Assembly (NCBI GenBank): GCA_947495555.1
Contig: CANLZI010000002.1
Span: 62,001 to 126,000, forward strand
Reading direction: 5' to 3'
Length of the DNA: 64,000 nt
Origin: an uncultured Erythrobacter sp.
Lineage (GTDB): Bacteria > Pseudomonadota > Alphaproteobacteria > Sphingomonadales > Sphingomonadaceae
Shown: positions 50,058 to 50,242 of the stretch, piece by piece
Numbering within the stretch: the first letter of the stretch is position 1
Layout: each line of letters begins with the position of its first letter
Notes under the pieces: model-generated
The model's database searches: none
Told to the model about the DNA's origin: nothing
Seen by the model: only the letters and a program-made list of their open reading frames with translations
Made by a program: the position numbers and the translations under genes

Positions 50058-50073
50058 GAGTCCATCCGGACTC
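50058..50073 (-). promoter_or_regulatory. Paired GANTC sites in the ccrM leader
   Basis: GAGTCC-ATCC-GGACTC is a perfect inverted repeat containing GAGTC (50058-50062) and GACTC (50069-50073), 34-49 bases upstream of the ccrM ATG and downstream of the CtrA-like box on the transcribed strand. In Caulobacter two CcrM sites lie in the ccrM leader and affect its timing. Confidence 0.7.
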
Positions 50074-50105
50074 TACGTCAAGCGGTAAATCATCGGCGCA
50101 TATGG

Positions 50106-50120
50106 TTAATGTCGGGTTAG
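50106..50120 (-). promoter_or_regulatory. CtrA-like box upstream of ccrM
   Basis: TTAA-N7-TTAG (50106-50109 and 50117-50120) matches the CtrA consensus TTAA-N7-TTAA with one difference. It is 82-96 bases upstream of the ccrM start and just downstream of the antiporter terminator, where the ccrM promoter must be. Confidence 0.65.
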
Positions 50121-50132
50121 TTATGAGAGAAC

Positions 50133-50196
50133 AAAAAGAGTCCCCCACAACATGTTGAGTCTCATCACTTTTGTAAGACTCGACATGATGGGGTGT
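50133..50196 (-). terminator. Terminator of the cation antiporter gene (contains GANTC sites)
   Basis: On the minus strand, 12 nearly perfect pairs, CATGTCGAGTCT / AGACTCAACATG with one G-T, are extended by CCCC/GGGG, with a loop of about 14 bases. After the stem comes GACTCTTTTTG. It follows the antiporter stop. GAGTC/GACTC occur in both arms (50157-50161, 50177-50181), with others at 50138-50142 and 50206-50210. Confidence 0.7.
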
Positions 50197-50242
50197 TGCG
50201 CTGAAGACTCAGCAGCCAGCTAGCTTGCGAAAAACTGTTGGA

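Follow-up and report, generated by a model that had tools for sequence, protein, structure and literature searches.

The window, i.e., the whole stretch of 64,000 nucleotides that was analysed, stems from an uncultured Erythrobacter sp. and carries on its minus strand ccrM, the gene for an orphan GANTC adenine-N6 methyltransferase with N6_N4_Mtase and RAMA domains; the GANTC specificity of the product is presumed here from knowledge of the family. The ATG at position 50024 was preferred as start codon over a longer, less likely TTG start at 50042, since the relatives start at an equivalent ATGGG. In 80 relatives (flanks of 2.5 kb, some of them cut), folP and rnhB were each found near ccrM in 66/80, and genes for a PQQ-type protein, an antiporter and an SDR protein in 57/80, 44/80 and 20/80, respectively (folP, rnhB, SDR and PQQ were named by eye). 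A PilZ-domain gene, which is convergent with ccrM in the window (48504-48860, plus strand), was a neighbour of ccrM in 1/80 relatives and is perhaps a recent one. Among six window genes around ccrM, no obvious DNA-binding candidate for a dedicated reader was apparent.

On the ccrM strand, the 190 bases 5' of the gene contain, in this order, GANTC sites 1-4, the sequence CTAA-N7-TTAACCAT, CTTGAC, sites 5-6 and TGTGGATAG. The features are listed below; frequencies given as x/80 refer to the aligned upstream regions.

48870-50024, minus strand: ccrM, start codon ATG at 50024
50045-50053, minus strand: DnaA box TGTGGATAG, last base off consensus (one mismatch)
50046-50083, minus strand: proximal block (CTTGAC, site 5, site 6 and DnaA box), match of sequence model R2
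50058-50062: GANTC site 6, GACTC on the ccrM strand; GANTC in 80/80, centre C in 78, T in 2
50069-50073: GANTC site 5, GAGTC; GANTC in 63/80, centre G in 42, C in 15, A in 6
50077-50082, minus strand: CTTGAC element, possible -35; TTGAC fixed relative to site 6 in 114/115 loci
50084-50127: inter-block spacer, unconserved except for the CtrA box; its length changes in relatives by steps of about one helical turn
50102-50120, minus strand: CtrA-like box CTAA-N7-TTAACCAT; TTAACCAT in 66/109 sequences
50128-50211, minus strand: distal block, nested dyad of sites 1-4 with TTTTTGTTC at its end, match of sequence model R1
50138-50142: GANTC site 4 (outer), GACTC on the ccrM strand; GANTC in 41/80, centre C in 41/41
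50145-50193: distal inverted repeat with 18-nt arms (50145-50162 and 50176-50193), 83% complementary
50157-50161: GANTC site 3 (inner), GACTC-AACAT; GANTC in 73/80, centre C in 73/73
50177-50181: GANTC site 2 (inner), GAGTC; GANTC in 69/80, centre G in 69/69
50206-50210: GANTC site 1 (outer), GAGTC on the ccrM strand; GANTC in 80/80, centre G in 80/80

The original prediction, which had been made from the letters of the window, named six GANTC sites, a perfect inverted repeat and a TTAA-N7-TTAG box, and all of these were found: sites 5 and 6, which are 11 bp apart, form the perfect dyad GAGTCC-ATCC-GGACTC (50058-50073), and the box lies at 50106-50120 on the plus strand, corresponding to CTAA-N7-TTAACCAT on the ccrM strand. 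From the orientations of the sites it follows that three pairs, 1/4, 2/3 and 5/6, are arranged as dyads with facing members. The prediction had missed that sites 1-4 form a nested dyad, that the G/C centres are fixed and that the distance between the blocks changes by whole turns; the CTTGAC element and the DnaA box had also gone unmentioned.

A chance rate of one GANTC per 256 bases had been assumed. The true background is far lower, since the window holds 67 GANTC vs 259 ± 15 in dinucleotide shuffles, i.e., the motif is depleted; in 844 kb of the 2.78-Mb genome (the window and 39 stretches of 20 kb) one was found per 776 bases. Within these 844 kb, GAGTC-N6-GACTC occurred in the array only. 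The centre base was A or T in 396 of 509 GANTC outside the array (444-kb sample) and G or C in all six sites of the array. An origin of the array by chance or base composition has practically no probability, being countered by the shuffles, the centre bias and the genome background as well as by the conservation, spacing classes and class-wide clusters described below; conservation across 80 aligned upstream regions refutes it.

Conservation of the sites and promoter elements

The relatives were the 80 best-ranking of 315 ccrM loci; judged by title, nearly all belong to genera of Erythrobacteraceae. The alignment of 80 upstream regions consisted of 79 of these loci (L037 was too short) and the window; together with 29 near relatives it gave a set of 109 sequences, which includes some duplicate genomes. 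Across the aligned regions the order and orientation of the sites were retained and the centre was nearly always G or C. Sites 1 and 6, the CTTGAC element and the DnaA box were almost invariant; at the aligned places of sites 4 and 5 no GANTC was present in 39/80 and 17/80 regions, respectively. Sequence model R1 matched 54 of 59 Sphingomonadaceae genomes (58 genera) at E <= 1 and 52 of 59 at E <= 1e-3. Its best match lay directly before ccrM in all 17 genomes with known ccrM position, and placement in the remaining genomes was checked in part, by reading 20 stretches. Extra matches were weak (E > 0.02) or were located at the same place on the other strand, which marks the distal block as a dyad. 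The proximal model matched 44/59 genomes at E <= 1, more of these matches being weak, and in three genomes (L312, L316, L319) the proximal block was kept without the distal block. Both the box and the repeat, whose conservation in close relatives had been proposed as a check, were present in the nearest relatives. The 80 aligned regions, the majority of the 59 family genomes and, with looser clusters, the majority of the class genomes that were read strongly support a conserved, GANTC-based control region of ccrM. Judging from this sequence conservation, the upstream region is very probably functional.

Two of the sites had been regarded as parts of the arms of a terminator of the upstream antiporter gene, which would lower the count to about five. 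If the distal hairpin were such an intrinsic terminator, with incidental GANTC sites, an inverted repeat followed by a T-rich stretch would be accounted for, and both are present; yet no terminator-like site was scored, and the arm pairs showed no covariation. Furthermore, the antiporter was the nearest of the six window neighbours within 420 bp upstream in 36/80 loci only (rnhB in 14/80, none in 30/80, some being cut by contig ends), yet site 1 was GANTC in 80/80, i.e., the block persists without an adjacent antiporter. The absent terminator score and the antiporter-independent conservation speak against this explanation, to which hardly any likelihood is left, and since the label is unsupported, all six GANTC sites count. 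A structured RNA was likewise set aside: 0/5 pairs of the distal arms covaried, which is a weak test, as the arms are nearly unvarying, and single-strand folding was only slightly better than that of shuffles (z -1.97, 3/200), as inverted repeats do. The lack of covariation in the arm pairs suggests that the distal block acts as DNA rather than RNA; the folding leaves room for a role as RNA.

The CtrA-like box proved to be among the least conserved elements. TTAACCAT was found in 66/109 sequences and YTAA-N7-TTAA in 27/109; the box was inverted or displaced in some relatives and absent in others, and among the GANTC sites, only site 4 (41/80) was kept less often. Where TTAACCAT occurred in the spacer, it was 47-49 bp from site 6 in all loci but one. 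In seven loci (L034, L035, L044, L052, L077, L092, L093) its inverse, ATGGTTAA, was found elsewhere in the spacer. The "Caulobacter plan" of the original prediction can therefore be kept as far as conserved GANTC-based control of ccrM is concerned, but its hallmark, the CtrA box, is poorly conserved. An ordinary Caulobacter-type CtrA promoter, in which GANTC would be incidental except for one or two sites, could explain the box in the window and the TTAACCAT half at its regular distance from site 6; it appears improbable, since many relatives have lost or displaced the box and kept the GANTC blocks.

A DnaA box adjoins site 6: TGTGGATAA was present anywhere upstream in 105/109 sequences, and TGTGGATA begins 8-10 bases after the second base of site 6 in 112/115 loci. 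A consensus DnaA box at a conserved place is what would be expected of a DnaA-regulated promoter. Control of ccrM by DnaA was predicted mainly where CtrA sites are missing, according to the available part of PMC2877005, in which GANTC were counted per promoter; the DnaA box described here fits that prediction. In six sequences of groups g2 and g8 of Sphingomonadaceae (L132, L135, L136, L137, L144, L145) TGTGGATAA was observed within the distal block, several copies occupying the position of site 2 or of its flank, which amounts to a turnover of DnaA boxes in one promoter.

CTTGAC[C/G] was found upstream in 106/109 sequences. No sigma-70-like promoter was scored in 49900-50400 and no standard -10 was visible at the usual distance from CTTGAC, and a location of the ccrM promoter elsewhere is therefore conceivable. 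The DnaA box includes GATAAC, which might serve as a -10 but has no -35 to go with it; TTGAC (-35) and GATAAC (-10) do not fit together as one promoter. If CTTGAC were the -35 element, the promoter core would contain sites 5 and 6, and the DnaA box would be close to the start of transcription.

Two blocks and the distance between them

Each block is rigid, with distances measured here from the second base of the GANTC site. In the distal block, GTTC follows site 3 after 27-28 bp in 112/115 loci, and in the proximal block TTGAC is located at a single fixed distance 5' of site 6 in 114/115 loci. The distance between site 3 and site 6 in the 115 loci was 98 bp (37 loci), 99 bp (37), 109 bp (19) or 110 bp (18), with 108 bp in two loci and 88 and 97 bp in one locus each; no distances between these classes were found, and the step is about 11 bp. 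When present, TTAACCAT keeps to site 6, and its distance to site 3 absorbs the step, being 50-51 or 60-62 bp. The set was obtained from 155 sequences, of which 24 gave no distance and 131 were measured, with 115 passing a score filter. Of the 16 loci dropped by score, 14 belonged to the same spacing classes, and two (0 and 19) were false matches to a weak proximal block.

A quick tree made from 110 ccrM sequences (103 of them different) requires at least ten switches of the spacing class. The tree has 30 weak forks and seven duplicate rows, and the ten changes are therefore a parsimony figure rather than proof of ten independent events. Under a simple null with uniform step sizes of 2-15, the probability that all of ten changes are in 9-12 would be 3.6e-6. 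A second measure, the distance from site 1 to TTGAC, was available for 169/175 sequences, including 17 of 20 further genomes: it was 126-130 bp in 111 sequences, 138-141 bp in 45 and 118 bp in three. Real deviants were three of the 169, with 116, 125 and 149 bp (L157, L329 and L321, respectively); values of 100, 134 (three times), 145, 166 and 168 look like mis-picked anchors. A periodicity statistic did not single out 11 bp, values from 9.5 to 13 scoring much alike, since there are only two large spacing classes. The case for whole turns rests on the gap between the classes and on the repeated changes.

With few exceptions, then, the spacing has changed in evolution by whole turns only, as would be expected of a phase-dependent operator pair or DNA loop. 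Such phasing is the pattern to be expected if proteins on both blocks were to meet on one face of the helix, and from it we infer a bridging of the blocks.

GANTC clusters elsewhere in the genome and in the class

In a first sample of 444 kb the next densest cluster contained three GANTC. The notion that the density of the array is unique in the genome was given up, as clusters of 5-6 sites were found in the 844 kb before dnaA, a ribonucleotide reductase gene and cpaB: six GANTC per 155 bp before dnaA (at L345:9939), and five before each of the other two. The two larger regions are:

L345:9939-10293 (G000:C1 about 1409939-1410293): dnaA-upstream cluster, ten GANTC within about 360 bp of the rpsT-dnaA interval (rpsT named by eye), with mixed centres
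L346:11786-12256 (G000:C1 about 1561786-1562256): cluster upstream of the ribonucleotide reductase large subunit gene, nine GANTC in about 475 bp, all A/T-centred

The third cluster, five GANTC in 63 bp (L339:1561-1619), is located about 640 bp upstream of cpaB/RcpC (Flp pilus), with a TTAACC site nearby. With such clusters upstream of dnaA and the ribonucleotide reductase gene as well, GANTC clustering is not private to ccrM; clusters at genes for replication, nucleotide supply and the Flp pilus would be expected of a cell-cycle set controlled by CcrM. With the same method, at least four GANTC in 155 bp were found in the family upstream of ccrM in 26/29 regions vs 6/29 for dnaA (one of 30 was dropped because of a contig end) and 7/30 for the reductase gene; at least three were present in 14/29 and 16/30 regions of the latter two, respectively.

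Beyond the family, the order was sampled with 80 of 144 matches as stretches (46 from the family, 34 not) and 29 more family members as loci. At least three GANTC in 155 bp were present near ccrM in 34/34 regions from other families of the order vs 1/34 stretches farther away. For the class, 87 of 144 matches were read (49/193 class genomes had no ccrM match at the cut-off). Among them, 64/86 genomes from other orders had such a cluster near ccrM vs 0/86 farther stretches, and 22/86 were without a cluster of three. Near ccrM, the density in these 86 genomes was one GANTC per 80 bases vs one per 415 farther away; together with one family member, 358 GANTC were observed vs 126 in shuffles of the same stretches. 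Neighbouring sites were 9-12 bp apart in 87 of 246 cases with distances of up to 45 bp, in 54/86 genomes; random placement in 150 bp gave a mean of 30 such pairs and a maximum of 45 in 500 trials. Since the centres are mixed outside the family and pairs at 9-12 bp are enriched, the methylation site and a liking for one-turn spacing are the class-wide constant and the G/C-centred dyad is a trait of the family. In group f5, another family of the order (L169, L171, L176, L185, L190), the sites of the ccrM array are 41, 13, 15 and 11 bp apart and have mixed centres; this is another lineage-specific architecture.

Control of ccrM and candidate readers

The comparison with the Caulobacter crescentus ccrM promoter relies on descriptions of that promoter. 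As in promoters of the Caulobacter type, GANTC is located close to the ccrM start in the window. The available text of PMC2217572 describes GANTC in the Caulobacter ccrM promoter and CtrA-dependent transcription which is said to occur only when the DNA is hemimethylated; promoter GANTC, a CtrA box and an expected link between replication, methylation and transcription are common to both. Unlike that of Caulobacter, the locus described here has six sites arranged as two dyad blocks with fixed G/C centres; it also has a DnaA box and whole-turn steps, and its CtrA box is dispensable. In the portions available, PMC3973325 calls ccrM "most probably" a direct target of the methylation state, and according to PMC4287350 promoters of Caulobacter with a GANTC between -10 and -35 fire at a distinct time.

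The array is best explained, with fair probability, as a helically phased, methylation-gated autoregulatory promoter module, which is related to the Caulobacter ccrM promoter and differently built. Methylation-gated autoregulation is the leading reading because the array precedes the gene of the enzyme itself, because its sites are conserved and because of the hemimethylation link in Caulobacter. Through this cis-regulatory module, ccrM would sense how far its own promoter is methylated. The proximal block, with CTTGAC, the GANTC dyad and the DnaA box, would be the core promoter or operator, and transcription would start within or just after it. The distal four-site dyad may be bound by one or more proteins which discriminate between methylated, hemimethylated and unmethylated GACTC and which would contact the promoter complex from a single, constant side of the helix. 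Upon replication, the entire array would become hemimethylated, to be closed later by CcrM, and the resulting feedback on the level of CcrM would be negative; DnaA and, in many lineages, CtrA could add cell-cycle timing.

A possible, still rather doubtful, identity of the reader is GcrA, which is encoded in the genome (PF07750 above cut-off). Methylated sites 5 and 6 would recruit GcrA-sigma70, and the distal sites would bind further GcrA, which would activate ccrM or, when the array is full, block it; this is a named version of the explanation preferred above and not its opposite. In the parts of PMC3667746 at hand, GcrA is reported to bind GANTC more strongly when methylated and to cover a larger stretch of the fully methylated ctrA P1 promoter. 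The extended GcrA motif of Caulobacter is YGAKTCK (PMC7987155, in part). Its first part, YGAKTC, was matched by site 1 in 70/80, site 3 in 63/73 and site 6 in 77/80 regions, and by site 2 in 49/69; sites 4 and 5 mostly fail the first base (9/41 and 1/63). The full motif was mostly absent, with 26/80, 21/69, 24/73, 0/41, 0/63 and 8/80 for sites 1-6, respectively. GcrA-sigma70 promoters such as ctrA P1, mipZ and podJ resemble the array in that GANTC adjoins promoter elements or falls between them, and the YGAKTC part of the motif is matched by sites 1, 3 and 6; they differ in that the array has six sites, four of which are about 55-127 bp upstream of the proximal block, and in that the last base of the extended motif is mostly not kept. 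No dyad of this sort at GcrA-sigma70 promoters appeared in the available portions of the literature consulted. A factor with a whole regulon would, besides, leave a long dyad which is found only at ccrM unexplained. GcrA is the best named candidate, since it is encoded in the genome and sites 1, 3 and 6 match most of the extended motif; the ccrM-only dyad suggests something more specific. The gcrA gene itself (G000:C1:1121737) lacks GANTC in the 500 bp preceding its Pfam match, unlike that of Agrobacterium, whose promoter is reported as responsive to methylation in the accessible part of PMC11514494.

Less likely still would be a repressor or a DnaA-containing complex on the GACTC half-sites which excludes CcrM, so that the sites would be protected from methylation and GANTC would merely be part of the motif of that protein. 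The fixed G/C centre and the flanks (GACTCA, GACTCAACATCTTGTGG) exceed the needs of a GANTC methyltransferase, and protein-shielded GANTC are known in Caulobacter (PMC5172544, as far as its available text goes). Other families and orders, however, have GANTC clusters with mixed centres at ccrM, so that the methylation site is the part which is shared.

Methylation sites clustered at a key cell-cycle locus, often with a spacing of about one helical turn, are familiar from the SeqA/Dam system of E. coli, in which GATC clusters occur at oriC and dnaA. The array described here differs in its location at the methyltransferase gene and in its two-block design; moreover, SeqA is not known from Alphaproteobacteria. 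Methyltransferases of restriction-modification systems, such as CfrBI, are autoregulated by methylation of their own promoter and thus likewise have the target site of the enzyme there; the array described here differs in that it is conserved, comprises several sites and belongs to an orphan enzyme of the cell cycle. Class I activator promoters depend on helical phase, e.g., CRP sites at steps of about 10-11 bp, and as in the array, the distance of the upstream site changes by whole turns; the distal element of the array differs in being a dyad of methylation sites, which about 100 bp separate from the proximal pair. A search for conserved clusters of the motifs of orphan methyltransferases is described in PMC4752239, which, in the part of it available, reports them at origins only; the available text of PMC10073500 had no terms matching such an array. 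No description of a helically phased two-block methylation array was found in the open-licence literature (supplements excluded, with most subscription papers outside), and as far as these searches show, it has not been described previously.

If the autoregulatory reading is extended, one may speculate that a self-reading array before ccrM is ancient in Alphaproteobacteria and that the reader in Sphingomonadaceae is SeqA-like or dyad-binding, possibly CcrM itself. Such a reader would need a cluster of GACTC sites, hemimethylated or fully methylated, that share one face of the helix, and it would bridge the distal dyad to the promoter, thus acting as a methylation thermostat; we regard this extension as distinctly tentative.

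The array touches on two open questions, namely how orphan methyltransferases control their own level and how hemimethylation is read outside the Dam/SeqA group. A module of fixed geometry at one gene throughout the family, with looser clusters throughout the class, offers a defined DNA bait for the reader. For the Sphingomonadaceae, the results suggest that the constant element at the ccrM promoter is the set of the enzyme's own methylation sites, and not the textbook link from CtrA to ccrM.
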